NCBI RefSeq assembly: GCF_900156065.1
Contig: NZ_FTNF01000002.1
Span: forward strand, 62,001-126,000
Reading direction: 5' to 3'
Length of the DNA: 64,000 bases
From: Micromonospora avicenniae
Lineage (GTDB): Bacteria; Actinomycetota; Actinomycetes; Mycobacteriales; Micromonosporaceae
The position numbers and the translations under genes were made by a program. The notes under the pieces are model-generated. The model did no database searches and was not told where the DNA came from. It was given only the letters and a program-made list of their open reading frames with translations. Shown here piece after piece: positions 4,021 through 61,156 of this stretch (positions are counted from its first letter, which is position 1; every line of letters begins with the position of its first letter).

Positions 4021-4800
4021 TCAGATCTCGTCGATCAGGTCCGCCACCGACTCGACCATCCGTGACGGCCGGTACGGGTAGCGTTCCGCCTCGGCCCGGG
4101 TGCTGATCCCGCTCAGCACCAGGATCGTCTCCAGACCGGCTTCCAGGCCGCACAGGATGTCGGTGTCCATCCGGTCCCCGATCATCGCGGTGCTCTCCGA
4201 GTGCGCGTTGATCGTGTTCAGCGCCGAACGCATCATCATCGGGTTCGGCTTGCCGACGAAGTAAGGCTCGATGCCGGTCGCCTTGGAGATCATCGCCGCT
4301 ACCGAGCCGGCGGCGGGCAGCGCGCCCTCCATCGACGGCCCGGTCACGTCCGGGTTCGTGCAGATGAACCGCGCCCCGTCGTTGATCAGGCGGATCGCCT
4401 TGGTGATCGCCTCGAAGCTGTAGGTGCGGGTCTCCCCCAGCACCACGTAGTCGGGCGCGAAATCGGTAAGCACGTAGCCGACCGCGTGCAGCGCCGTGGT
4501 GAGCCCGGCCTCCCCGATGACGTACGCCGTGCCGCCCGGCCGCTGCTCGCCGAGGAACTGGGCCGTGGCCAGCGCCGACGACCAGATCGCCTCCTCCGGC
4601 ACGTCCAGCCCCATCCGGCTGAGCCGGGCCTGCAGGTCGCGCGGTGTGTAGATCGAGTTGTTGGTGAGCACCAGGAAAGGCTTGCCGGAGGCGCGCATCC
4701 GCTTGATGAACTCGGGCGCTCCCGGGACGGGCTGGCCCTCGTGCACCAGCACACCGTCCATGTCGGTGAGCCAGCTCTGCACGGGCTTGCGGTCATGCAT
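4021..4800 (-). CDS. HAD-IIA family phosphatase (NagD-like)
   Basis: 259 residues. HAD motif I is DMDGVLV near residue 14, motif II is the Thr of VLTNNS near residue 46, and motif III/IV are Lys in FVGKPNP and the acidic GDRMDTDI near residue 208. The large C2 cap between motifs II and III identifies subclass IIA, which includes NagD and p-nitrophenyl phosphatases. It probably dephosphorylates small sugar or nucleotide phosphates. The start at 4800 agrees with the usual length of about 260 residues. It is followed on the same strand by nothing close, and the ferrochelatase gene ends 37 bp upstream. Confidence 0.88.
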   Translation of the reverse strand: MHDRKPVQSWLTDMDGVLVHEGQPVPGAPEFIKRMRASGKPFLVLTNNSIYTPRDLQARLSRMGLDVPEEAIWSSALATAQFLGEQRPGGTAYVIGEAGLTTALHAVGYVLTDFAPDYVVLGETRTYSFEAITKAIRLINDGARFICTNPDVTGPSMEGALPAAGSVAAMISKATGIEPYFVGKPNPMMMRSALNTINAHSESTAMIGDRMDTDILCGLEAGLETILVLSGISTRAEAERYPYRPSRMVESVADLIDEI

Positions 4801-4837
4801 CGGGTGCTCCCAGGTCTGTCGGATGGGCGGGTCGGTG

Positions 4838-7618: not shown

Positions 7619-8839
7619 ATGGATCGCAGTCCAGTCAGCGCCGCCGTGTCAGCCCTTCGCCGTGTCGTGGCCGGGCCGGACTACCCCGCGATCCGGCCGC
7701 TGCGCCGCTCGCCCCGGACGGCCGCCGTCGCGTCGGCGATCGGGTCGCTGGCGCTGGTCGCGCTGACCCTGGTCACCGTGGTGTTCCTGCTCGACGCGCG
7801 GAGACTGCCCATCGCCAGCGCCTGGCTGATCGCGGTGCTCACCGTCGCGCCACTGCCGCTGCTGCCGGCCCGACCGCTGTGGGCCTGGCGGGTCATGTTC
7901 GTCGGGCAGTTGCTCGGCACGTTCAACCGGCAGGCGACGGAGACCTGGCCGTGGAGCCCCAGCCAGGTAATCGTCATCATCGTCGTGCTGTTCGTGGTGG
8001 CCGCCCGGGTCGACCGCGCCGTGCTGGCCTGGATCGGCCTGTTCAGTCTCATCCCGGTCTGGATGTACGTCGCACCGGCCGACCAGGTCGGCATCAGCCT
8101 GCTCTTCGTCGTACTGCTCATCGTCGGCGATCTGGTGCGGCGCAACGTGCACACCCGGCGGGCGCTGGCCGAGCAGGCCGAGCTGAGCGAGCTGGAGAAG
8201 GCCCGGCGGGCGGTGCTGGAGGAGCGCACCCGGATCGCCCGGGAGATGCACGACGTGGTCGCCCACCACATGTCGATGATCGCCGTGCAGGCGGAGACCG
8301 CACCGTACCGGCTCGACTCCGTGCCCGGGCCGGTACGCGACGAGTTCGCCGCCATCGCCGACTCCGCCCGTGCCGCGCTGACCGACATGCGGCGGCTGCT
8401 CGGCGTGCTGCGCAGCGAGTCGGAGGACCTCAGGACCACGCCGCAACCCGACCTCGCCGACCTGCCCGACCTGGTGGCCTCCGCCCGCCGCGCGGGCATG
8501 GCGGTGGTCTCGACCACGGACGTGCCCACCACGCCGCCCGCCCCGGTCGGGCTGGCCGCGTACCGCATCGTGCAGGAGGGGCTGGCCAACGCCGCCCGGC
8601 ACGCGGCGGGCGCGGCCGTGCGCGTGAACCTGCGCGCCCACGGCGGACAGCTGGCGGTGCGGGTGTCGAACACCGCCGACGGCGTCGCGGCCGGACCGGA
8701 CCGGGCCGGCGGGCACGGGCTGACCGGCATGCGCGAGCGGGCGGTCGCCCTCGGCGGTACGTTCACCGCCGGCGCCACCGACGACGGCGGCTACGCGGTC
8801 GAGGCGACGCTGCCGTACGCCGACGATGAGGAGAAGTGA
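7619..8839 (+). CDS. Sensor histidine kinase, NarL-partner (HisKA_3) type
   Basis: 406 residues from the ATG at 7619; further upstream codons are open but a -10-like box argues for this start. The N-terminal half has about five hydrophobic segments (residues 35-165) with no large extracellular loop, so the signal is probably sensed in the membrane. The phosphoacceptor is the His of REMHDVVAHHMSM, followed by a HATPase domain with AYRIVQEGLANAARHA and GHGLTGMRERA. The gene overlaps the response regulator by one base (TGATG), so the two are translated together. The stimulus is unknown. Confidence 0.9.
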   Translation: MDRSPVSAAVSALRRVVAGPDYPAIRPLRRSPRTAAVASAIGSLALVALTLVTVVFLLDARRLPIASAWLIAVLTVAPLPLLPARPLWAWRVMFVGQLLGTFNRQATETWPWSPSQVIVIIVVLFVVAARVDRAVLAWIGLFSLIPVWMYVAPADQVGISLLFVVLLIVGDLVRRNVHTRRALAEQAELSELEKARRAVLEERTRIAREMHDVVAHHMSMIAVQAETAPYRLDSVPGPVRDEFAAIADSARAALTDMRRLLGVLRSESEDLRTTPQPDLADLPDLVASARRAGMAVVSTTDVPTTPPAPVGLAAYRIVQEGLANAARHAAGAAVRVNLRAHGGQLAVRVSNTADGVAAGPDRAGGHGLTGMRERAVALGGTFTAGATDDGGYAVEATLPYADDEEK

Positions 8840-49123: not shown

Positions 49124-49223
49124 CCGTTGTGGGGCACGCGGGACGGGACCGTGGGCACCGGCGGGTGGACGCGCCGGCGTCCGGTGCCGGGCGGCCACCG
49201 GCCGCAGGCGCGCCCCCGTCCGG

Positions 49224-49826
49224 TCAGTCGGACGTGCGGCGCGCGTCGCGGGTCTTCATGGCGTGCTCCAGCAGGGTGATGAGCACCTCCTTGCTGGATT
49301 CCCGCCTGCGCGCGTCGCAGAGGAGCACCGGCACATCCGGGTCCAGGTTCAGCGCCGCCTGCACCTCGTCCAGCCGGTACTGCTTGGCCCCCTCGAAGCA
49401 GTTGACCGCCACCACGAACGGCGTCCCCCGCCCCTCGAAGTAGTCGATCGAGGGGAAGCAGTCGGCCAGCCGGCGAGTGTCGGCGAGCACCACCGCACCG
49501 ATCGCGCCGAGCGCCAGTTCGTCCCAGACGAACCAGAACCGGTCCTGCCCCGGCGTACCGAAGAGGTAGAGCACGAGGTCGTCGCTGATCGTGATCCGGC
49601 CGAAGTCCATCGCGACGGTGGTGGTGCTCTTGCTTTCCACACCGGACAGATCGTCGATGCCGACCCCGGACTCGGTCAGCACCTCCTCGGTACGCAACGG
49701 GCGTGTCTCGCTGACCGCGCCGACCATGGTGGTCTTACCCACCCCGAAACCGCCCGCGACCAGAATCTTGATCGCGGTGGGCAGTGGGGTAGCTCCCGCC
49801 GGCCGCTCAGAGGGCCCGTAGTCCAT
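49224..49826 (-). CDS. cvnD: Conservon small GTP-binding protein (CvnD), copy 1
   Basis: 200 residues from an ATG at 49826 inside the cvnC gene (20-bp overlap). The P-loop is GGFGVGKTTMVG near residue 25, the switch region TTTVAMDFGRI, then LFGTPGQDRFWF (G3) and VVAVNCFEG in the place of NKxD. These are Ras-like G proteins found only with roadblock and DUF742 partners. The protein works in conservon signalling at the membrane. It is about 80% like the second copy at 52461-53078 by eye. It is last in its operon. Confidence 0.92.
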   Translation of the reverse strand: MDYGPSERPAGATPLPTAIKILVAGGFGVGKTTMVGAVSETRPLRTEEVLTESGVGIDDLSGVESKSTTTVAMDFGRITISDDLVLYLFGTPGQDRFWFVWDELALGAIGAVVLADTRRLADCFPSIDYFEGRGTPFVVAVNCFEGAKQYRLDEVQAALNLDPDVPVLLCDARRRESSKEVLITLLEHAMKTRDARRTSD

Positions 49827-50193
49827 TGATAACCGCCTCGAAAACACTGTTGTCGGGAAGCCCGGCCGAGGTGCGCGGCTCGCGAACCTGGACCAGGTTG
49901 CGGGCCACCAGATCACCCAGCAGGACCCGGATGGTGCCCACCGGGAGGTCCAGGTGGGCGGCGATCTCGGCGACGGACTGCATGCGCTGGCAGAGCCCAA
50001 CGATCGCCACGTGCTCCGGCCCCAGGCCGATTTCCGCGCTCACGTCGGCGCGGGTCGCCGTGACCAACGAGATCAGGTCGAACGTGCCGGTGACCGGGCG
50101 GGCCCGGCCGCGCGTGACCGCGTACGGACGCACGACCGGCCCGGCATGGTCGTCCACCCACTGATGCTCTGCGGACTCCCCCTGCACCGTCAT
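49807..50193 (-). CDS. cvnC: Conservon DUF742 protein (CvnC), copy 1
   Basis: 128 residues. DUF742 has a winged-helix shape: VVRPYAVTRGRARPVTG near the start, IVGLCQRMQSVAEIAAHLDL and GTIRVLLGDLVARNLVQV as the helix-turn-helix, then GLPDNSVFEAVINGLRAL at the end. CvnC is thought to link roadblock protein and G protein. The gene overlaps cvnD by 20 bp and follows cvnB by 5 bp. Confidence 0.92.
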   Translation of the reverse strand: MTVQGESAEHQWVDDHAGPVVRPYAVTRGRARPVTGTFDLISLVTATRADVSAEIGLGPEHVAIVGLCQRMQSVAEIAAHLDLPVGTIRVLLGDLVARNLVQVREPRTSAGLPDNSVFEAVINGLRAL

Positions 50194-50198
50194 CGCGG

Positions 50199-50621
50199 CT
50201 ACTTCTCGCCGGTCGGCGGTTCGGCGGGCCGGGTCGGCGAGGCCACGTGCTTGCCGACCCGGGTGACGAGCATCGCCATCTCGTAGGCGATCAGCCCGAC
50301 GTCGGCGTCCTCACTGGCCAGAACCGCGAGACAGGCGTTTCGCCCGGCGGCTGTGACGAAGAGGAACGAGGACTGCATCTCGATGATGGTCTGCTGCACC
50401 TGGCCACCACCGAACCGCTTCCCCGCACCCCGGGCGAGGCTCTGGATCCCGGCCGCCATCGCGGCCAGGTGCTCACCGTCGTCCCGGCTGAGACCCTGCG
50501 AGGAGGCCATCAACAGGCCGTCCGTCGAGAGCGCGACCGCGTGCTCGGCCTGCTTCACCCGGCCGACCAGGTCATCCAGCAACCACGTCAGGTCGGCACC
50601 CGATGCCGTCTTCTGGGCCAC
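50199..50621 (-). CDS. cvnB: Conservon roadblock/LC7 protein (CvnB), copy 1
   Basis: 140 residues from a GTG at 50621. The roadblock/LC7 fold is seen in LTWLLDDLVGRVKQAEHAV, STDGLLMASSQGLSRDDG and TIIEMQSSFLFVTAAG. Such proteins act as GTPase partners or activators. The normal upstream gene, the kinase cvnA, is replaced by the mosaic ORF at 50713-51552. It is 91 bp from that ORF, a wider gap than in the intact copy. Confidence 0.92.
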   Translation of the reverse strand: MAQKTASGADLTWLLDDLVGRVKQAEHAVALSTDGLLMASSQGLSRDDGEHLAAMAAGIQSLARGAGKRFGGGQVQQTIIEMQSSFLFVTAAGRNACLAVLASEDADVGLIAYEMAMLVTRVGKHVASPTRPAEPPTGEK

Positions 50622-50712
50622 TCGTCGTCCTCTTCTCCCACGGCTGATGTAGCCGTCTTCGTCTGGTGCTGACCGCTCCGTCGCGGGCGGACTTCCGCGC
50701 CGCCGGCACTGG

Positions 50713-51552
50713 TCAGGTCGCTTGCTGCTCGTCGGCCTCCGGGCCCGGCCCGGCTTCCGGCGCGTCATCGTCGCCCAGCAGGCGCGCCGCCTCCGTCCGG
50801 CCCCGGCGGGTCCCCTTCTGGTACGAGCTCATCATCCGGCGCACCTGCTCGGGCTGCCGCACCATCTCCTCGTCCTCGTCAGCGCCGGTCGCCGCGGGAT
50901 CGTCACGCAGTTCGGGCCGATGCGCCCCGGTCTCCTGCGTGATCTGACGGTCGTCCAGACCGCCGAGCGCGTCGAACACGTCGAAGATCGAGTCGATCAC
51001 CCCGACGTACGCGTTCATCGTGCGGGTCTGCTCGACTTCGATGTCGACGGTCCGGCCGTCCCGTGACGGCTTGTCGAGTTCGTCGACCGACTCCCGGATG
51101 GCCTCGGCCATCCCGTCCAGCAGCGCCTCGATCCGTTTGGCGGTGAACATCGGCTGGAGCATCTTCCGGCTGGCCGACCCGATCTGTCCCTCGCCGAATA
51201 GCCGTTCCACGGGCCGCCAGGACAAGCCGTCGTCGGCCCGCTCGTAGCTCTCCGACCGCTCGCACGGCACGTGCCGCACGTGCCGGGGATGCGTCACCAG
51301 GTACGGCCGGAAAGAGCCCAGGTTGATGCGGACCAGTTCCCCGCCGGTCCGGTCACCGACGGCTATCAGCGCACGGGCCGGGTCTCGGAGCAGGCTCGGC
51401 ACCATCTGGTGCGGCAGGACGGTGTGCGCTGGTCGGACGCGGGACTGCCCGCTATCTGCCGATTGCACCTGGCCCGCCCCCCCTCTTTGCAACTGTCCGT
51501 CGTGGAACGACTCTGTGGTCAGAACCCAGCGAGCATGCCATTGCACCGTCAA
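50713..51552 (-). pseudogene. In-frame mosaic of cytochrome P450 and CvnA fragments
   Basis: A 279-residue open frame in three parts. Residues about 50-178 match the N-terminal third of the P450 at 58986-60368 (shared features FRPYLVTHP, LFGEGQIGSASRKMLQPMF, ESVDELD). Residues about 181-207 (AYVGVIDSIFDVFDALGGLD) match residues near 150 of the intact CvnA (AYTQVVDSMFQLYDVVGGLD). Residues 211-279 match the CvnA tail (RRMMSSYQKGTRRGR versus RMMMSSYQKGTQRGR). The heme Cys, the kinase core and most of the sensor domain are missing. Both junctions, near 51015 and 50928, keep the frame. The start is uncertain; MVPSLLRDP at 51405 is possible. It is probably a deletion product. Confidence 0.8.
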
Positions 51553-51759
51553 ACTTCGCTAAGCTTGACCTTCAACCTCCGAGGTTACTGTCGCGACCCC
51601 GGGCGGACAGAAACAGCCCTTGATCGATGATCTTCTCATCTAGGGAAGAACACCAATAACCGGAGGGCTGTTCTGGTGATCAATGTGCATAACCGTGGTC
51701 CGGCTGATGCCGTCGGGAGTTGGCAGGGTTCCGGTTGGAGTTCCAGCCATCGTCAGCGG

Positions 51760-52182
51760 GCGTCCGGACATCAATTGGGTGCGCACCTGCCTCGCGGCGA
51801 TGCCGTTGCCGCGGCGGCTGATGGACGCGTGGTATTGGCGGTGGGCATCACCTGCTGGTTGCGGCTGGGATGCGCATACCTCGCCGCAGTGGATCATGTG
51901 TCACACCTGCGGTCGCGGCAAGGATCAGACCATCATGATCCCGGGCTGGCCGTTTCGATGGTCGTGGCCTGAGAACCGGGGCCGAAGTTCATGACCACGC
52001 CCTTGGACACGGTGCGGCTGGCGCCTGGTGATGACGCGGTCGGGGTAACCGCTGAGCAGTTGCGGGACATCGTGGGGCGCCTGATCGCGGCCGGGCCGTG
52101 GCGCGACGGTGACCTGGGAATCCTGATCGTGGCCGACGCCCGCCTCGACGCGTCCCGGATGGCGTTCCTCCTGCGCACTCAA
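51760..52182 (+). pseudogene. Frameshifted remnant of an IS701-family transposase
   Basis: Three pieces of one transposase are found in two frames. First AADGRVVLAVGITCWLR (51820 region). Then, in the next frame, CHTCGRGKDQTIMIPGWPF (about 51899-51955). Then, back in the first frame, TAEQLRDIVGRLIAAG and ILIVADARLDASRMAFLL (51990-52170). These stretches are typical of IS701-type DDE transposases, in which the second Asp lies in the ADA part. Both ends of the gene are missing. A 9-bp inverted repeat (AACAGCCCT at 51612, AGGGCTGTT at 51664) just to the left may be an old IS end. Confidence 0.75.
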
Positions 52183-52409
52183 TCGGCCATCGCTTCGGAA
52201 GCCTTTTCCAACTCCGCGAGGCCTGCCTTCAAGGCGATTCCGGTCGCACGGAGGCTCGCGAACTCGTCAGGCTGCCGGAGCAGAACGTCGCCTGGGAGCG
52301 TCTGCCCAATCGCACGCAGCCGTCGAGCCATCACGAACGGGTCAGCGGGCAGCATGAAACCAATCGTGGCCAAAGTCGGCCAGACTGGCTCTCTGGGGGC
52401 GGGACACAT
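52179..52409 (-). CDS. Short ORF of unknown nature between the conservons
   Basis: A 76-codon frame with a helical, charged C-terminus (MARRLRAIGQTLPGDVLLRQ and ALKAGLAELEKASEAMAD). I do not recognise it. It lies in the debris zone between the two conservons and may be a fragment of a lost gene or part of the IS region. It starts 51 bp past the stop of the downstream cvnD on the same strand. Confidence 0.25.
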   Translation of the reverse strand: MCPAPREPVWPTLATIGFMLPADPFVMARRLRAIGQTLPGDVLLRQPDEFASLRATGIALKAGLAELEKASEAMAD

Positions 52410-52460
52410 CTCGGACGCCTGACCTTGTCGGCCCGCTTGCTGCTCAGCACGCCCCGAACG

Positions 52461-53078
52461 TCATGACCCGACCGATGCCGGTTCTCGGCCCGCAGCGCGG
52501 CCTTTCATCACGTGCTCAAGCAGAGTAATCAGAACGTCCTTGCTCGAGTCCCGCTCCCTGGCGTCACACAGCATCACGGGCACCTCTGGGTCTAGGTTGA
52601 GCGCCAGCTTCACTTCGTCGATGCTGTACCTGCGCGCACCGTCGAAGCAGTTGACCGCCACCACGAACGGCAATCCGTGCTGCTCAAAGTAGTCGACAGA
52701 GGGAAAGCAGTCGGCCAAGCGGCGTGTGTCGGCGAGAACAACAGCGCCGAGGGCACCGAGGGCCAGCTCGTCCCAGACAAACCAGAACCGGTCTTGTCCA
52801 GGTGTACCGAAGAGATACAACACGAGGTCGTCGCCGAAGCTGATTCGACCGAAGTCCATAGCGACCGTGGTCGTTGACTTTGACTCCACCCCGGAGATGT
52901 CGTCGACCCCCACTCCCTGCTCGGACAGGAGCTCCTCCGTCCGCAGCGGCTTGGTCTCGCTAACGGCACCGACGAGGGTGGTTTTGCCGACGCCGAAGCC
53001 GCCGGCGACGAGGATTTTGACGGCAGTGGGTAGGACGGCGGCCCGGGCCTCGTCCCCGTCAGAGCGCTCGTAGTCCAT
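52461..53078 (-). CDS. cvnD: Conservon small GTP-binding protein (CvnD), copy 2
   Basis: 205 residues from MDYERSDGDEARAAV, overlapping cvnC by 20 bp. P-loop GGFGVGKTTLVG, switch STTTVAMDFGRI, LFGTPGQDRFWFVWDELALG and VVAVNCFDGARR are all kept. Compared with copy 1 the core is nearly the same while both ends differ. Last gene of the complete conservon, and probably of the whole unit that begins with the P450 gene. Confidence 0.93.
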   Translation of the reverse strand: MDYERSDGDEARAAVLPTAVKILVAGGFGVGKTTLVGAVSETKPLRTEELLSEQGVGVDDISGVESKSTTTVAMDFGRISFGDDLVLYLFGTPGQDRFWFVWDELALGALGAVVLADTRRLADCFPSVDYFEQHGLPFVVAVNCFDGARRYSIDEVKLALNLDPEVPVMLCDARERDSSKDVLITLLEHVMKGRAAGREPASVGS

Positions 53079-53439
53079 TGATCAGTGCCTCAAATACGCG
53101 GTTGTCGGGAAGGTTGGTGTGTTGCGCGGGCTCGGTGACTCGCACGAGCTGCCGAGCGAGCAGGTCGTCAAGCAGGACACGAACCGTGCCTAGAGGCAGG
53201 CCGAGGTGCGCGGCTACCTCGGCCATCGCCAGAGGGCGTTCCTGACAGAGTCCGACGATCCTGATGTGCTCTGGTCCGATGCCGACCTCGGCCGGTGGCG
53301 CCACCCGGGTGGCGGCCACCAGCGAGATCACGTTGAAGCGGTTCTTCGCGATGGCGCGGCCCCGGGTCATCGCGTACGGCCGCACCACGGGTCCCGCGTC
53401 GTCGTCCACCCACCGCGGCTCTGCATCCGACGTTGTCAT
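53059..53439 (-). CDS. cvnC: Conservon DUF742 protein (CvnC), copy 2
   Basis: 126 residues. WVDDDAGPVVRPYAMTRGRA at the start, helix-turn-helix AMAEVAAHLGLPLGTVRVLL, and LPDNRVFEALINGLRAL at the end. It follows cvnB by 8 bp and overlaps cvnD by 20 bp, exactly as in copy 1, so the two loci share one ancestor. Confidence 0.93.
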   Translation of the reverse strand: MTTSDAEPRWVDDDAGPVVRPYAMTRGRAIAKNRFNVISLVAATRVAPPAEVGIGPEHIRIVGLCQERPLAMAEVAAHLGLPLGTVRVLLDDLLARQLVRVTEPAQHTNLPDNRVFEALINGLRAL

Positions 53440-53447
53440 CGCGGCTC

Positions 53448-53870
53448 CTAGCTGCGTGCCGACGTCTGAGGAGTTCGAGACGGCGACGCGAGATACTTGC
53501 CCGCGCGGTCGACAAGCGTGGTCATCTCGTAGGCGACAAGCCCGAGGTCGGCGTCCACCGCCGCCAGAACCGCGAGGCAGGCCCCGTAACCGGCGGCGGT
53601 GACCAGCAGGAAGGACTTCTCCAGCTCGATGATGGTCTGCTGGACAGCGCCACCGCCGAATCGTGTTCCGGCGCCCTTGGCAAGGCTGTGGATGCCTGAC
53701 GCGATGGCAGCCAGGTGTTCACCGTCGTCGCGGTTCAAATCAGCTGACGCGGCGATGAGCAGCCCGTCGACGGAGAGAACGATGGCGTGCTCGGCCTGCT
53801 TCACCCGACCCACCAGGTCGTCCAGCAAGAAGGCAAGATCGCTGCTGGATCTGTGCTGTTGCTGTACCAC
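53448..53870 (-). CDS. cvnB: Conservon roadblock/LC7 protein (CvnB), copy 2
   Basis: 140 residues, the same length as copy 1. Roadblock features are LAFLLDDLVGRVKQAEHAIV, SVDGLLIAASADLNRDDG and TIIELEKSFLLVTAAG. It lies 15 bp after cvnA. The roadblock protein is expected to bridge the kinase-like CvnA and the G protein. Confidence 0.93.
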   Translation of the reverse strand: MVQQQHRSSSDLAFLLDDLVGRVKQAEHAIVLSVDGLLIAASADLNRDDGEHLAAIASGIHSLAKGAGTRFGGGAVQQTIIELEKSFLLVTAAGYGACLAVLAAVDADLGLVAYEMTTLVDRAGKYLASPSRTPQTSARS

Positions 53871-53885: not shown

Positions 53886-56288
53886 CTACCGTTCGGTCTC
53901 GGTCGCTGCCGAGCCATCGGTGTCCCGTGGGTCCGTGTCCTTGTCGTCGCCGAGTCGGCGCTCCGTCTCCGCACGACCGCGCTGGGTGCCCTTTTGGTAG
54001 GAGCTCATCATCATGCGGACGCGGTCGGGGTTTCGCGCCGGCTCATCCTCATCCGTGCTTTCCGCCGCTGGGCGTTTGTTGTCGCGCAACTGCGGTGCCA
54101 GGCTGGTCTGTCGCACGCGGACCGGTAGCCCACTCGGCGTCTGGGATTCCTGCGCTGAAGGCGCCGCCGGTGGTGCCGACCGCGCGGGAAGCACGGAGGG
54201 GCTGCCGGTCGTCGCATCCGGCGTTCGCTGGCTCGGCACCTTATGCACGACGGGGGAACCGAGCTTGGGTGTCGGAGATGTCAGCGCAGAGATCGGGGCG
54301 TCGACGAGCCCCTCCGGGCGGCTGGGCGCGGTGAGCGCAGGTTGCCGCTCGGCCGGTTTGCCACTAGCCGTCTCGCCCTCGATGCCTCCCGCGCCTACGC
54401 CGGGGGCTGTGGCGTTGGTGACCAGCCCCATCGGGATGAGTACCACAGCGGTCGTGCCGCCATACGGGGAGGTCTTGAGGTGCACAACGCACTTGTGCCT
54501 ATCCGCCAGCCGACTGACCACGAACAGGCCAAGTTTGTTGGCGTTGGACAGCGAGAACTCCTGGTGCTGCGCGATCTGCTCGTTGGCCGCTTTGAGCTCT
54601 GCGGCGTCCATGCCCAGCCCGCGGTCTTCGATCTCAACGGCGAAGCCCCGCGCGACGAGCTGGCCGCGGACCTGCACCTCGGTGTGAGGAGGCGAGAACG
54701 ACAAAGCGTTCTCGATCAGCTCAGCGAGCAGGTGGATGATGTCACCGACCGCACGGCCGGCGAGGCCGACCGATTCGATCGGCATGACGCTGACCCGCTG
54801 GTAGTCCTCGACCTCCTGCACAGCGCCACGGACGACGTCGACCATCGGCACGTCGCGACGCCAGGCACGGGCGGGAGCCGCGCCCGACAGCACTACCAGG
54901 TTTTCGGCGTTGCGGCGCATACGAACGGCGAGGTGGTCCACGCGGAACAGGTCCTCAAGCTCTTCGGAGTCTTGCTCGCGGCGCTCCATCTCGTCGAGGA
55001 GCGAAACCTGCCGGTGAACGAGGCTCTGGGTACGCCGGGCAAGGCTTAGGAAGACATCGCGGACCCCTTGGCGCAACTGCGCCTGCATCACTGCGGTGGC
55101 GATCGCCGTCTCCTGGACCCGGTTGAACGCCTCGCCCACCTTGCCGATTTCATCGTCACCGAAGTCGAGTGGCGGCGCTTCGGCCGCGACGTCGACCTTC
55201 TCGCCGCGCCCGAGGCGCTCAACCACGCCCGGCAGTCGCTCGTCGGCTAGCTTGTGGGCTGCGGCGCTCAGACGCTGCAGCTGCGCGACCAGCGCGCGGG
55301 CGGTGGTAACGGAGACCACGATCGACGCGATGACAGCAAGCAGACCAAGACCGGCTGCGAGCAGCAGCCGAACGATGACCCACACCGCGACCGGGGCAGC
55401 CCGGTCAACGACCGCGTCGCCGGCGGACAGCACCATGTCTTGCAGCTCGGACAGAGCGGACTGAGAGGCATCGTTCCACTCCTGTGCCGAGACGGCTGGC
55501 TTGGACCTGGTGCGCTCGCTCTGAAGAATACGGTCTTCGATTTCGCGGAGTTTGGTGAACGACGGACCCGCGATCACCTGATCGAACTGGGTGCGCTCGG
55601 AGGGACGGAGCTGGTCCGAAGCCCGACCGGCCAGGAACCGCTGCGCGGCGACGAGCTGAGTGAATTCGACGTTTTCGGCGGGGGTGGTGCGCCCCGCGGC
55701 GAGAGCACCGGTGAGCAGTGCGTCCTCCTGGGACATTAGCTCGCGAATCCGGTAGAGCTCGATGAGGTTGCGGGTGTCCGCCTCGATGTCCGGGTCGTCG
55801 AGGCCGCCCACGACGTCGTAGAGCTGGAACATGGAGTCGACGACTTGGGTGTAAGCCTTCGCGGCTGCCGCGCGATCGAGGTCACGGCTGTCAATTGACT
55901 CGCGGGTGGCAGGCAGGGTGTTCAGCGCCGCAATCGCCGCGTCGACGGTGCGTTCGGCTTCGGCCCCAGCCATCAGGTCGGCTAGCCAGCTCTGGGCAGA
56001 CTCTCTGAACTCTGCCGCGGCAGCGTCGACCCTCTGCCGGCTCGCGGCCAACTCATCCTTGCCGGCTGAGCTGGACGAACCCAGCTGCGCCGTAGACAGC
56101 CGCCGTTCGACTTGCAACTCGAGCAGCAGGGGTTCGCTTGGCGCGACGATTTTGCTGTCGACTGTTTGGACTCCCAGCAGGTTGACCCCGTCCCGGAGCG
56201 TCACCCATGCCGCGAACGACCAGAGAGCGACCAGTGACACCAGGAGAGCGACAACCTTGGTGCGCAGATTGGTACCGCGAGACCGCAT
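53886..56288 (-). CDS. cvnA: Conservon sensor histidine-kinase-like protein (CvnA)
   Basis: 800 residues. An N-terminal membrane helix (residues 9-28) precedes a helical nitrate/nitrite-sensing-type (NIT) extracellular domain to about 285. A second helix (residues 298-325) and a HAMP linker follow. The HATPase domain has HLLAELIENALSFSPPHTEV near 520, EIEDRGLGMDAAEL, and NKLGLFVVSRLADRHKCVV. The final 200 residues are a Pro/Ser-rich tail ending MMMSSYQKGTQRGRAE, a motif also found in the mosaic ORF of copy 1. No typical phosphoacceptor His box is clear. It lies 179 bp after the class II cyclase and may have its own promoter there. Confidence 0.92.
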   Translation of the reverse strand: MRSRGTNLRTKVVALLVSLVALWSFAAWVTLRDGVNLLGVQTVDSKIVAPSEPLLLELQVERRLSTAQLGSSSSAGKDELAASRQRVDAAAAEFRESAQSWLADLMAGAEAERTVDAAIAALNTLPATRESIDSRDLDRAAAAKAYTQVVDSMFQLYDVVGGLDDPDIEADTRNLIELYRIRELMSQEDALLTGALAAGRTTPAENVEFTQLVAAQRFLAGRASDQLRPSERTQFDQVIAGPSFTKLREIEDRILQSERTRSKPAVSAQEWNDASQSALSELQDMVLSAGDAVVDRAAPVAVWVIVRLLLAAGLGLLAVIASIVVSVTTARALVAQLQRLSAAAHKLADERLPGVVERLGRGEKVDVAAEAPPLDFGDDEIGKVGEAFNRVQETAIATAVMQAQLRQGVRDVFLSLARRTQSLVHRQVSLLDEMERREQDSEELEDLFRVDHLAVRMRRNAENLVVLSGAAPARAWRRDVPMVDVVRGAVQEVEDYQRVSVMPIESVGLAGRAVGDIIHLLAELIENALSFSPPHTEVQVRGQLVARGFAVEIEDRGLGMDAAELKAANEQIAQHQEFSLSNANKLGLFVVSRLADRHKCVVHLKTSPYGGTTAVVLIPMGLVTNATAPGVGAGGIEGETASGKPAERQPALTAPSRPEGLVDAPISALTSPTPKLGSPVVHKVPSQRTPDATTGSPSVLPARSAPPAAPSAQESQTPSGLPVRVRQTSLAPQLRDNKRPAAESTDEDEPARNPDRVRMMMSSYQKGTQRGRAETERRLGDDKDTDPRDTDGSAATETER

Positions 56289-56467: not shown

Positions 56468-58075
56468 TTACATCCTGCTGCCCGACAGATACTCCTGCCC
56501 ATGAGCCGTAGAGACACGCTCGGCTACGTGCCGTGCTGCGAGGACAGCTGCGCGAACGATCATGGTGGGGCGGTAGAGGTCCTTGTCGTGCCATAGCGCT
56601 GGCCCATCTTCCTCGCTGTGCTCCTCGAGGTACGCGCGGCCGCGCAGGAGAGCGGTGCCCGCGCCGGGCAGGTTCCGGCCGGCGGCCACAAGCACCTGTA
56701 TCGCGTACGCGGTTTCCTCCACGGTGCCGCCCCACCGGCCCCAGGAGCCGTCTACCCGTTGCGACGCGGCGACCCAACGCGCCGCCCGGACGAGAGCGCT
56801 GGCAGCCGATGGCTCGGCGGCATCAGCTACCGCGAGGGTGCAACACATAGTGGCGTAGTACGGAGAGGCGTGCCATCGGTCCTGCCAGCTACCGTCCGCC
56901 TGCTGACGGGCTTGCAGCGCGTCGACCAGGCGGCGGACGGCGACCGGGTAGCGCGTGGACGTGTTGGGCCGGGCAGCCACGTGCTGGGTGAGGGCATCCA
57001 GGACGTGCGCGTTGGTGGTCAGTGAAAACCCATCCTCCCCCGGCCATGTGCAGAAGCCTTGCGGCGTCTCGTACCGCCACAGGCACTCGGTGTCGCCCGG
57101 AGCGCCGAGGGCAGTGAGGGCATACAAGGTCACAGAGGTTGTGTCTGCGTCCGCCGGCAGCCCGGGCCCGGTCGGAATGCCGTCCACCGTGAGATCCGCT
57201 GTGAGGCTGCGGATGAGATCCGGCGATGCCGGAACCCTTAGTCCGGCCCGCTTCAGGCTGCTGACGACCCAGGAGCGCTCGAACGCCGTGATCGGTGTGG
57301 CACACGGCGCTAGGCTGCCGTGTCGCTTGACGACGGACTCCAGGTACGCGCGGGACGCGGGATGGTTCGCCGCGCCGCTAGGCCCTCCGAGCCACGCCGC
57401 GGTCGCCGCCGCCGATGCGCCAACGATGCCGTGCGGCGGCGGTTCGACGCCGCGGGCCTGCCGGGCGAGGTCACCGACGACCTCCAGAGCGTGCAGTAGC
57501 TTTTGCGGCACGCTGCCGCCACTGGCTATCAGCCTGCGGACCGCCGCGAGTCTCCGTCCGTCCATTCCGATCGGCAGGTTGAGAAGCGCGCCGGCGTGCC
57601 AGTGTTTCAGCTCGGTGATCGCCTCTGGCCGGGAGAGATGCGCGTTGATTGACTCGACCAGCGCCGGCACGATGAGTTCAATCGCGGGCGTGTCGGGGAT
57701 GGCGCGTACGGCAGGAAGCCACTTAGCGAGCGCCTGCAAGCCGCGATCCGCTGCGGCGAGCAAATCCTCCTGTGGTGACGTCCGCGCGACGGCGAGCAGA
57801 GCCTCGGTAGCGCTCAAGGTGGGAACGAGGGCGTATTCCCCGCGAGGGCCCCATCCGCCGTCTGGACGCTGACTGCTCAGCAGGAAGTTCACCCGATCGA
57901 CATGCCCAGTCAGCCAGGGCGCCAGGCTGACAAGTCGAGCGGTCTCGTACACAGACGGGGACACCTGACCGGCGGGCTCGCTTGCCATCGCGGCGAGCAG
58001 ACGCTCGATGGCGCCGGCACGCTGAGTCGGCAGAACGGCTGATGTGGTCGTTCCCGCTGCTTGGTTAGCGCTCAA
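56468..58075 (-). CDS. Class II terpene cyclase (diterpene type)
   Basis: 535 residues with the beta-gamma double alpha-barrel pattern of bacterial class II cyclases: QW-like repeats QRPDGGWGPRGEYAL near residue 70, QADGSWQDRWHASPYYA near 405 and RVDGSWGRWGGTVEETAYAI near 465. The acid motif is D309-A-D311-T-T, in place of the usual DxDD. The enzyme would protonate and cyclise a prenyl diphosphate, leaving the diphosphate for a class I enzyme. It overlaps the class I gene by 11 bp. The start ATG at 58075 is fixed by that overlap. The exact substrate (C20 or C15) is uncertain. Confidence 0.87.
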   Translation of the reverse strand: MSANQAAGTTTSAVLPTQRAGAIERLLAAMASEPAGQVSPSVYETARLVSLAPWLTGHVDRVNFLLSSQRPDGGWGPRGEYALVPTLSATEALLAVARTSPQEDLLAAADRGLQALAKWLPAVRAIPDTPAIELIVPALVESINAHLSRPEAITELKHWHAGALLNLPIGMDGRRLAAVRRLIASGGSVPQKLLHALEVVGDLARQARGVEPPPHGIVGASAAATAAWLGGPSGAANHPASRAYLESVVKRHGSLAPCATPITAFERSWVVSSLKRAGLRVPASPDLIRSLTADLTVDGIPTGPGLPADADTTSVTLYALTALGAPGDTECLWRYETPQGFCTWPGEDGFSLTTNAHVLDALTQHVAARPNTSTRYPVAVRRLVDALQARQQADGSWQDRWHASPYYATMCCTLAVADAAEPSAASALVRAARWVAASQRVDGSWGRWGGTVEETAYAIQVLVAAGRNLPGAGTALLRGRAYLEEHSEEDGPALWHDKDLYRPTMIVRAAVLAARHVAERVSTAHGQEYLSGSRM

Positions 58076-58973
58076 AGCTGCCCCAGAAGTCGGTGCCGTG
58101 GTAGAAGCCCGTGGTGAAGCCGATCTCGCGGGCCAGGTAGTGGGCCTGTTGGGGGCAGAGTGCCTCCACGCTGCTGTCCAGGAGGTCCCGGCACTGGCTG
58201 ATGCGGTCGGCCACCCGCCGCTGGATGTCGTCCCGGTCGACGCCGAGCATGAGCCCGTTGAGGTCGCCGGACTTCAGGTCCCGCTCGTAGCTGGCCAGGT
58301 CGTTGACCAGCCGAAGCACCTGCTGCACCTCCCTGCTCGCCGCTATCAGCTCGGGGAGGTGGTCCAGCGTGTCCTCGTCACCCGTCGCGATCCAGTGAGA
58401 CACGTTGACAAAGGTCGCGCCGTAGTTGTCGGCGTTGGCGAGGTACTCCGCGAAGGTGGGCAACTGCGTCTCGTCGGTCGCCCGGGCGGCCCGCCACCGC
58501 CACTCGCGCGCGTCGGCGGTGAGAACCCTGCGGACTTCCTCACGCCAGAGCGGCTGCACCGCGCCGAACGACGCGGTGGTGGCCAGCTCGTCGCGGATCT
58601 CGGCGAGGAACTGGCCAAGCTCGTCTTCTTCTGCGGGAGCATCACCGTCGGCGACGCTGAGGCAAGCGGAGACGGTCGCCTCAACCTCGTCGACAGTGGC
58701 TGCGACGTTGTCGATCCGCCAGTCCTCGGCGGTGATCCACAGCGAGGCGCGGTTGGCGACCCGGAGTTGCTCGGCCGTGCACCACGGAGCGATGAACGCC
58801 GTGCTCAGCGCCAGGGCACTGAGCATGGCATCGTCGACCGGCGGGTTGGGGAACAACTTCGGGTATGCCGCTACCCGCTTCTGCAGGTCGCGTTGACCGC
58901 GGGCGGCGAGTGAGCAGATGCGTCCCTGCTCGGTGGCGACCGTGAGCCCGTCGCGGACGGCGTACGGAGGCAC
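58065..58973 (-). CDS. Class I terpene synthase
   Basis: 302 residues, the size of single-domain bacterial class I enzymes. The second metal motif is NDLASYERD at residues 224-232, an NSE-type variant ending in Asp. The first metal motif should lie at residues 82-89 (AEDWRIDN), which has two Asp four apart rather than DDxxD. It would ionise the product of the class II cyclase and complete the ring system. It lies 12 bp after the P450 gene and overlaps the cyclase gene, so all three are one transcript. Confidence 0.82.
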   Translation of the reverse strand: MPPYAVRDGLTVATEQGRICSLAARGQRDLQKRVAAYPKLFPNPPVDDAMLSALALSTAFIAPWCTAEQLRVANRASLWITAEDWRIDNVAATVDEVEATVSACLSVADGDAPAEEDELGQFLAEIRDELATTASFGAVQPLWREEVRRVLTADAREWRWRAARATDETQLPTFAEYLANADNYGATFVNVSHWIATGDEDTLDHLPELIAASREVQQVLRLVNDLASYERDLKSGDLNGLMLGVDRDDIQRRVADRISQCRDLLDSSVEALCPQQAHYLAREIGFTTGFYHGTDFWGSFER

Positions 58974-58985
58974 GATGGTGTGCTC

Positions 58986-60368
58986 CTATCGGGTGACGGA
59001 TCGTTTGAGAGGAATCAAGGTCATCTCTACCCTGCGCGCTGGGCGCAGCGAGGCGGCGACCCGGGCCCCGGGCATGGTGGAGTCGGTGAGCCTGAACCGG
59101 TACCGGCTGAGCAGCGTGCTGACGATCAGCACGGCCTCCAGGTTGAACAGGTGCTCGCCGAGGCAACGGTGCATCCCAGCCCCGAATGGGTAGTGGGCAT
59201 AGCGGTGCTGGCCGTCGGCAGCGGCGCGGCCGGGCGCGAACCGTTCGGGGTCGAACTCCGTTGCCGTCGGCCCCCACCAGGCGGACATGCGCTGGGTCGC
59301 GTACGGCGAAAGGATAATCGTCGCGCCCTTGTCGATGCGCACTCCGCCGAGCACATCGTCGGCGGCCGCGCGGCGAGGCACGATCCAGCCCGCCGGGTAC
59401 AGCCGGAGGAGTTCCTCCAGGACCATCTTGGTGTAGGTCAGCTCGGACAGATGGTCGGCGTTGACCGGCCCGGGTCCGACCACGCGCTCGATCTCGTCGA
59501 CCAGCCTGTCGGCGATGTGGGGGTGGTTGGCGAGCACTGGCCACAGCCAGGTCAGCACCACGTAGCTGGTCTCGGTGGTCACGGCGACCATCGACACCAG
59601 GTCGTCACGCATCTGCTTCTCGCTCAGTGGCTGGCCGTCGGGGGTCCGGGCTTGTGCGAGCGTGGACAGCACGTCGTCGCCGTCATTCGGTTCGCGTACG
59701 GCCTCGCGGAGCACCGGTAACAGGATGTTGTCGATGCCCTGCACTGCGGCGCGGAAGCGCCGGTCTCCGGGCATCGGAACCCACCACGGCATGAACGGTG
59801 CCAGCAGTCGCGGAGCCATCGCGGTGACGATGGTCTCCTGGGCGGCTATGATCCGTAGCCCGTCCTGAACCGAGATGCGGTCGGCGAAGAAGACTCTCAT
59901 GATGGCGCTGCAGACGATTCGCGACAGCTCACGTCCGACGTCGACCGGCTGCCCGGCGGCCGCGGGGGCGTCGAGTTCGTCGACCGCCGTGGCGATCGCA
60001 TCGGCCATGGTCTCGACCAGGCGGTTGATGCGGGCGGGCCGGAACAGCGGCGCGAGGATGCGGCGGCTCGCCGCCCACGTCTCGCCCTCGGCGAGGATGC
60101 CATCGCCGACGAGCTGCCGGACGGAGCGCCAGAGCGCGGTGTCGTCGCCTCGCGGGTAGATAGCCGCCTTCTCTTGCAGGACCTCCTGCACGTGGGCAGG
60201 GTTGGTGACCAGGTAGGGGCGTGAGACGCCGAGCGAGACACGCACGACGTCCCCGCCGGACTGGTTGCCGACGTCGACGAGAGCGCCGTGAGCGTCACGG
60301 ACGACCGACGGTAGGGCCCGCCAAGCGGGGATCACCTTGGCGCGGGCTCCTGGCAGTGATCTAGACAT
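58986..60368 (-). CDS. Cytochrome P450
   Basis: 460 residues from MSRSLPGARAKVIPAWRAL at 60368. The heme-binding motif is FGAGMHRCLGEH near residue 405, and the ExxR motif is EELLR near 325. The oxygen-binding helix reads MVAVTTETSY, without the usual (A/G)Gx(D/E)T. Position suggests oxidation of the terpene made by the next two enzymes. No ferredoxin or reductase gene is nearby. Its N-terminal third has a relative in the mosaic ORF of the other conservon. Confidence 0.9.
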   Translation of the reverse strand: MSRSLPGARAKVIPAWRALPSVVRDAHGALVDVGNQSGGDVVRVSLGVSRPYLVTNPAHVQEVLQEKAAIYPRGDDTALWRSVRQLVGDGILAEGETWAASRRILAPLFRPARINRLVETMADAIATAVDELDAPAAAGQPVDVGRELSRIVCSAIMRVFFADRISVQDGLRIIAAQETIVTAMAPRLLAPFMPWWVPMPGDRRFRAAVQGIDNILLPVLREAVREPNDGDDVLSTLAQARTPDGQPLSEKQMRDDLVSMVAVTTETSYVVLTWLWPVLANHPHIADRLVDEIERVVGPGPVNADHLSELTYTKMVLEELLRLYPAGWIVPRRAAADDVLGGVRIDKGATIILSPYATQRMSAWWGPTATEFDPERFAPGRAAADGQHRYAHYPFGAGMHRCLGEHLFNLEAVLIVSTLLSRYRFRLTDSTMPGARVAASLRPARRVEMTLIPLKRSVTR

Positions 60369-61156
60369 GCGAATTCTCCACAATGCCCCTTCCCCACCGG
60401 CGGCGGAGCCTAATTGATCCGCGGCTCAGGATCTAAGCGGCGTTAAGTGTCCTCTCTGCACCTACCGTCATGCAATGTGTGATCGGCTTCGCTTTCAGTG
60501 TGGGCGGTTTCCACCCCTTCCTGTCGCTCGCGGGGCGAGGCGTCCTTGCTGGTCGGCGCCGGATCAGCAGGCCTCCGGCTGTTCCTCGCATGCAAGGGAC
60601 ACGTGGACGATGGACCGTCGAACGTGGTGCGTGACGTGAGTGGCAGTCCTGTCCGGGTGGCTCACGGCACCGTGGCAGCATGCGTGGCGTGCGGCCCTCC
60701 AATGACGACCGAGCGGTTGCCGCAGCGTGCGCCGTTAGAGGTGGCCGGCAACGTGTGCCGTGTGTTTCGCGGTGCCAGGCGAGGCGTGCCGCATGGTGTT
60801 GTCGGAGCCGGGCCAGAAAGCTGGGGCTCGGTGGCCGAACGCCGAAGGTGCACCGGCGGCGACGGGCAGCAGCCAGTGACGCGGCACGTCGCCAGTCGCA
60901 TGCGCCGGGCGGAGCGCCCGAGGATGGCACGCAACCGGCGGACGATCCCCTGCCTGCGGGGGGAGCAGCCGGCTGGCCGGGTAGGTCAACGGGCCGGGGC
61001 TGGGGCGGGCTGACGGGCAGCGGTCAGCGACGTCGCGAGGCGGCGGCCACCCCGCGAGCGGCAACCGCGACGGGTCATGATCAGGCCCTACAGGCAGGTC
61101 GGACGACCGGATCGGCGGGGTAACCTGCGCGGCCCCAGGCGCCCTGTGCCAGGCTC
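60369..61156. other. 788-bp gap without a supported gene
   Basis: Several long frames are open on both strands here, but all are Arg/Pro/Gly-rich, lack good ribosome binding sites and show no recognisable domain. The region includes the promoter of the P450-terpene-conservon unit (right-hand side of 60369) and the start region of the DUF2630 gene, with TAACCT at 61121-61126. GC content is lower than in the flanking genes, and it may be decayed DNA. Confidence 0.5.

Follow-up and report, generated by a model that had tools for sequence, protein, structure and literature searches.

A probable deletion pseudogene in place of a conservon kinase gene, beside an intact terpene-enzyme conservon operon, in Micromonospora avicenniae

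Two conservon operons side by side

We analysed a window of 64,000 nucleotides from Micromonospora avicenniae (NCBI RefSeq assembly GCF_900156065.1, contig NZ_FTNF01000002.1, positions 62,001 to 126,000), in which an intact operon lies directly upstream of the remains of a related, diverged one, both on the minus strand. We refer to the kind of the intact operon as type 1 and to the kind present in Micromonospora musae MS1-9 (G103) as type 2. The type 1 operon comprises genes for a P450, a terpene synthase and a squalene-cyclase-like protein (56468–60383, assigned by domain matches), the sensor kinase gene cvnA1 (53886–56288, with NIT, HAMP and HATPase domains in Pfam) and open cvnB1, cvnC1 and cvnD1 (52461–53870), with a Pfam match for CvnD1 only. 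The P450, synthase, cyclase-like and CvnA proteins of this operon share 56, 51, 53 and 56% identity with their M. musae counterparts, and CvnD1, CvnC1 and CvnB1 are 97.6, 98.4 and 100% identical to those of Micromonospora sp. 15K316 (G016). The squalene-cyclase-like protein (56468–58075) carries a DADTT motif and no DxDD; we take the former to resemble the motif of drimenyl diphosphate synthases.

The two operons are separated by a probable transposon remnant (51562–52449), assigned from recurring DNA and a transposase fragment. A 142-base piece adjoining the P450 stump described below (51559–51700) recurs in at least 11 genomes of the genus, and residues 2–64 of an open reading frame on the plus strand (51991–52422) match the NF041680 transposase family at 30.9 bits (E 1.4e-7), below the family cut-off of 440. 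No counterpart of window positions 51331–52448 was found at the same place in 15K316.

At the far end of the type 2 remains stand three open genes in the usual conservon order: cvnB2 (50199–50621, with a Roadblock/LC7 match in the frame 50199–50768), cvnC2 (49807–50193, DUF742 by Pfam) and cvnD2 (49224–49826, a small GTPase by homology, with PF03029 in the frame 49224–50000), all on the minus strand and 97, 98 and 97% identical in protein to their M. musae counterparts. The place of cvnA in front of them is taken by the subject of this study, a mosaic frame (50713–51552) that had been picked out in a preliminary description made from the letters alone. As that description had it, the frame is open over 279 codons and remains so across both of its joins, and we place it on the minus strand, beginning with a TTG. 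If it is translated at all, translation more probably begins at 51468, with the GTG of the old P450, and covers 50713–51468, or 251 codons; this GTG is preceded by the purine-rich string AGAGGGGGG, which, judged from its letters, may have a role there.

Composition and origin of the mosaic frame

The mosaic consists of three pieces, all on the minus strand: the N-terminal stump of a type 2 P450 (51035–51468; 84% DNA identity to M. musae over 51021–51561), a piece of the NIT sensor domain of CvnA2 (50924–51035) and the CvnA2 C-terminal tail (50713–50922, within a 95.3% DNA match to M. musae that runs from 50922 to 49212, through cvnD2). The boundary between the stump and the NIT piece can be placed only to within about 15 bases, and the P450 part has lost a further 15 bases in frame relative to M. 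musae. About 30 residues are left of the NIT domain, and the tail comprises about the last 68 of CvnA. While the P450 N-terminus and the CvnA tail had been recognised correctly, the internal piece had been placed in the middle of CvnA; it corresponds to approximately residues 138–175 of the M. musae homologue, that is, to roughly the first fifth of the protein (84% DNA identity to M. musae over 50906–51035, and 90% to G026 over 50924–51012).

The proposed loss of the heme site and the kinase core bears out. A Pfam search of the mosaic at E 0.001 returned no family, and thus no recognisable heme domain or HATPase. The heme-binding Cys loop (FxxGxxxCxG; FGAGMHRCLG at residue 400 of the window's intact P450) is absent, the P450 part stopping long before it, and the HAMP and HATPase domains of CvnA lie within the stretch taken out by the second of the two deletions described below. 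LPxR, given as the C-terminal motif of conservon kinases in the part of PMC4316618 available to us, is missing too: in M. musae CvnA2 the motif, LPVR, comes upstream of the part that the mosaic has kept as its tail.

The preliminary description had compared the mosaic with the intact P450 and CvnA of the same window, and the suggested alignment does find both: mosaic residues 30–195 match the P450 (41% identity, E 6e-34), residues 213–262 match the CvnA tail (63%, E 2e-14) and residues 115–208 match CvnA residues 60–172 weakly (27%, E 3e-7). As the source of the pieces, however, these genes have to be rejected, since the type 2 proteins of M. musae are far closer (75% identity for the P450 part, 93% for the tail). 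The best match outside M. avicenniae, among 61 genomes searched, has an E value of 7e-79, a resemblance far beyond chance.

In a DNA search of 160 genomes of the genus, the P450 part and the tail appear as separate matches about 6 to 6.5 kb apart in M. musae, M. costi CS1-12 (G075) and G026. We compared the layout of the locus in these three genomes and in G095. In all four, an operon of the type 2 layout lies between the same flanks as in M. avicenniae, in the order P450, terpene synthase, squalene-cyclase-like protein, cvnA-B-C-D. The uninterrupted order that was to be sought in relatives thus exists, but P450 and cvnA are not direct neighbours, two enzyme genes standing between them. All seven M. 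musae genes translate without a stop, and the cvnA frames of M. musae, M. costi, G026 and G095 span 873, 892, 885 and 858 codons; the other operon genes outside M. musae were judged by tblastn coverage only. The flanks are shared from about 61065–61140 of the window outwards and, on the other side, beginning with the trio, over 50922 to about 45700. Full-length homologues at the same locus, between the same flanks, support the reading of the mosaic as a deletion product. By the same comparison the M. avicenniae locus lacks a complete cvnA-B-C-D series: B, C and D are open, and A is reduced to two pieces.

Relative to M. musae, the first join leads from P450 position ~4661 to cvnA position ~8630–8645, and the second from ~8743–8761 to 10536, at a short shared string, CATCG, identified by eye; the losses amount to about 4 kb and 1.8 kb. 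By chance, the two joins alone would both stay in frame about once in nine cases. In 15K316, which has the same tandem of a type 1 operon upstream of type 2 remains, the second join is identical and the first enters cvnA at 8631, no more than about 15 bases from its position in M. avicenniae. The P450 side of the first join differs: in 15K316 it ends at 4822, with ~4575–4722 missing inside. The 15K316 stump also contains a stop in frame, frameshifts from three deletions (7, 5 and 1 bases) and a 1-base insertion, and two in-frame deletions (9 and 3 bases). The simplest order of events would be a first deletion common to both lineages, which then grew in that of M. avicenniae and was joined by an internal loss in that of 15K316; the alternative is two separate first deletions in the two lineages. 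An assembly error as the source of the mosaic is unlikely, since the second join recurs in 15K316.

The outcome named beforehand as speaking for a true gene family, the same conserved mosaic in many genomes, is not what we see, and we reject such a family: among the matches listed from the 160 genomes (M. avicenniae included), only M. avicenniae and 15K316 span both joins, and the frame of the latter is broken. Likewise, a scan of genome contigs returned four loci related to the mosaic, with the P450 part and the tail together only in 15K316. The tail on its own matched in 158 of the 160 genomes, at least 11 of these tails sitting in frames no longer than 308 codons; among the 11 listed, eight run off a contig end (G171, G079, G014, G116, G086, G064, G010 and G022) and the internal ones are those of M. 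avicenniae, 15K316 and G153. In G153 (L050, 5694–8161) cvnA is split in two, with the tail in a 308-codon frame and with the enzyme genes and cvnB-C-D kept, reflecting either a separate loss of the kinase or a sequencing error.

Selection and competing explanations

We counted changes on single branches, leaving out gapped codons and codons that the outgroups M. costi and G026 do not settle; the intact type 1 P450 of 15K316 was left out of the stump comparison, and the 15K316 stump was counted separately. On the M. avicenniae branch, the P450 stump has accumulated 8 synonymous and 17 nonsynonymous changes, as compared to 7 and 4 on the M. musae branch, a difference that is not significant (Fisher 0.14). 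For cvnB2, cvnC2 and cvnD2 together the M. avicenniae branch shows 15 synonymous and 3 nonsynonymous changes, which differs from its stump (Fisher 0.0016) and not from the trio on the M. musae branch (16:2, Fisher 1.0), so that constraint on the trio looks unchanged here. The tail, with 1 synonymous and 2 nonsynonymous changes, offers too few to judge, the count being limited to 51 codons by the short G026 match. In 15K316 the tail has a 5-base deletion and 1 synonymous to 6 nonsynonymous polarised changes, and the P450 pieces, compared with M. musae without polarisation, differ by 22 synonymous changes, 24 nonsynonymous changes and 1 stop.

Protein identities of CvnB2, CvnC2 and CvnD2 to M. 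musae, M. costi, G026 and 15K316 are 95.7–98.4%, and to G095 they are 97.1, 97.7 and 93.8%; dN/dS between M. avicenniae and 15K316 is 0.13, 0.16 and 0.10, respectively, and in the six pairs among M. musae, M. costi, G026 and G095 it is 0.00–0.12. Such purifying selection suggests that the three genes are probably expressed and used in M. avicenniae. In 15K316 the constraint may be weaker, as suggested by 8 synonymous to 7 nonsynonymous changes on its branch (M. musae 11:2, Fisher 0.11) and by a cvnC2 dN/dS of 0.38 between M. musae and 15K316. A slight relaxation between M. avicenniae and 15K316 is possible: about 48 synonymous and 17 nonsynonymous differences separate their trios, against 75:11 for M. 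musae and M. costi (Fisher 0.056) and 88:18 for M. musae and G026 (Fisher 0.17).

Taken with the joins, these counts make it very probable that the mosaic is a deletion pseudogene left by a decayed type 2 operon. The type 2 operon is the one that belongs at the locus in relatives; with the diverged type 1 operon directly upstream, its enzyme genes and kinase would have decayed, through one deletion from within the P450 gene into the NIT part of cvnA and another from there to the cvnA tail, probably in that order, followed by further losses in each lineage. Against a pseudogene count a frame that has stayed open despite two joins and the loss of 15 bases, and an old P450 start that remains together with its purine-rich motif. 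The open frame is probably luck: when we simulated neutral change in a 444-base stump (4000 runs), 63, 49, 37 and 23% of the runs were free of stops after 15, 25, 35 and 55 changes, and the open frame is thus no sign of function. The same open frame from the old start, along with the 93% identity of the tail to the intact M. musae tail, would also suit a new small protein, a predicted fusion of 251 residues that would serve as an adaptor or decoy without a kinase, its CvnA tail holding CvnB2-C2-D2. We regard this as highly improbable given the near-neutral 8:17 of the stump, the frameshifts and stop in 15K316, the missing LPxR motif and the lack of a Pfam match. Selection might instead act on the DNA, with the cvnA tail holding a promoter or leader of cvnB2-C2-D2, as would fit a second deletion that ends at the tail and the high DNA identity to M. 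musae from the tail through cvnD2. The damaged tail of 15K316, with its 5-base deletion and nonsynonymous excess, and a scan of 49200–53000 that found no sigma-70-like site (0.2 expected; the scan covers that promoter type only) make this unlikely as well, if less so than a new protein.

How the two operons met is a separate matter. Instead of an incoming operon displacing an older one, the tandem may be ancestral and lost differentially by species. For seven type 1 genes, dS between M. avicenniae and 15K316 is 0.09–0.26, much as in three flanking frames (0.115–0.24, leaving out a fourth frame that is antisense), and by this measure type 1 shows no sign of being younger than its surroundings. 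Moreover, the flanks of 15K316 are nearer to those of M. musae (92–96% DNA identity) than to those of M. avicenniae (89–92%), yet M. musae has no tandem; a single-line history would therefore need transfer, reversal or repeated deletion. An ancestral tandem is nevertheless doubtful. A search at E 1e-10 of the stretches fetched from M. musae, M. costi, G026, G095 and G173 showed no second copy. In G173 (L047, 1491–17476) the type 1 operon stands alone between the same flanks, and a sensitive search of the 1.3 kb gap there gave no convincing trace of type 2, the hit being a 26-base piece in the cvnA tail region at E 0.08. Finally, G065 (L049, 3975–12025; same flanks) is a hybrid: its P450 and synthase are 74 and 67% identical to type 1 versus 56 and 54% to type 2, its CvnB, CvnC and CvnD are 90, 84 and 88% identical to type 2 versus 71, 62 and 77% to type 1, and its CvnA is equidistant (61%). 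This mix points to exchange by recombination. G095 (L046, 5421–13485; flanks 82–91% identical in DNA to the window) hints at exchange of modules too, having a type 2 kinase and trio (CvnB-C-D 96–99% to type 2) with a synthase and a cyclase-like protein that reach only 58 and 54% identity to their type 2 counterparts. Judged from these comparisons, the locus seems to be a place where the enzyme and sensor part is swapped. G144 and G063 have type 1-like operons with no matching flanks in the stretches fetched.

Known systems and implications

Compared with conservons of the cvnA-B-C-D kind (such as cvn8 and cvn9 of Streptomyces coelicolor), cvnB2-C2-D2 is an ordinary trio in the usual order but without a kinase of its own. 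The P450 does not fit the published CvnE type: in the part of PMC13343842 available to us, the genes scored as CvnE P450s come four places after cvnA, and their partner CvnA proteins have no sensor domain, whereas here the P450 lies upstream of cvnA, separated from it by the two terpene-type enzyme genes, and CvnA1 has a NIT domain. Adjacent duplicated conservons of which one is depleted of genes are described in the accessible part of PMC4316618, although the pair there lost the GTPase (mglA/cvnD), whereas the present pair keeps the GTPase and has lost the enzymes together with most of cvnA. The Salinispora terp1/sat cluster likewise has a P450 together with a class I synthase and a further cyclase; the text of the paper on it (PMC9814573) contains neither ‘roadblock’ nor ‘histidine kinase’, so no linked conservon is described in it. 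Among open-licence papers we found none that joins conservon, terpene and P450, which says little about the literature in print; no such locus appeared in the titles listed for conservon, pseudogene and Micromonospora, and papers on diterpenes and drimanes, such as PMC11035983, offered general relatives only in the parts seen.

It is common for one of two copies to decay once a gene set has been duplicated or displaced, and the mosaic itself is ordinary decay. The setting is more useful than the fusion: species seem to swap modules of terpene enzymes and sensor at this locus but to keep the cvnB-C-D trio. Work on cvn8 mutants has raised the possibility of cross talk between conservons (PMC8510531, seen in part), and an open cvnA1 lies next door; input in trans from another kinase such as CvnA1 would be the most likely reason for the retention of cvnB2-C2-D2. 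That CvnA1 itself drives CvnB2-C2-D2, one kinase feeding two G-protein modules, is a tentative proposal; if true, it would be a branched conservon produced by operon displacement. A kinase-less CvnB2-C2-D2 kept beside a complete conservon is a useful point, and with both operons side by side the locus is a natural test of whether CvnB-C-D works without its own kinase.
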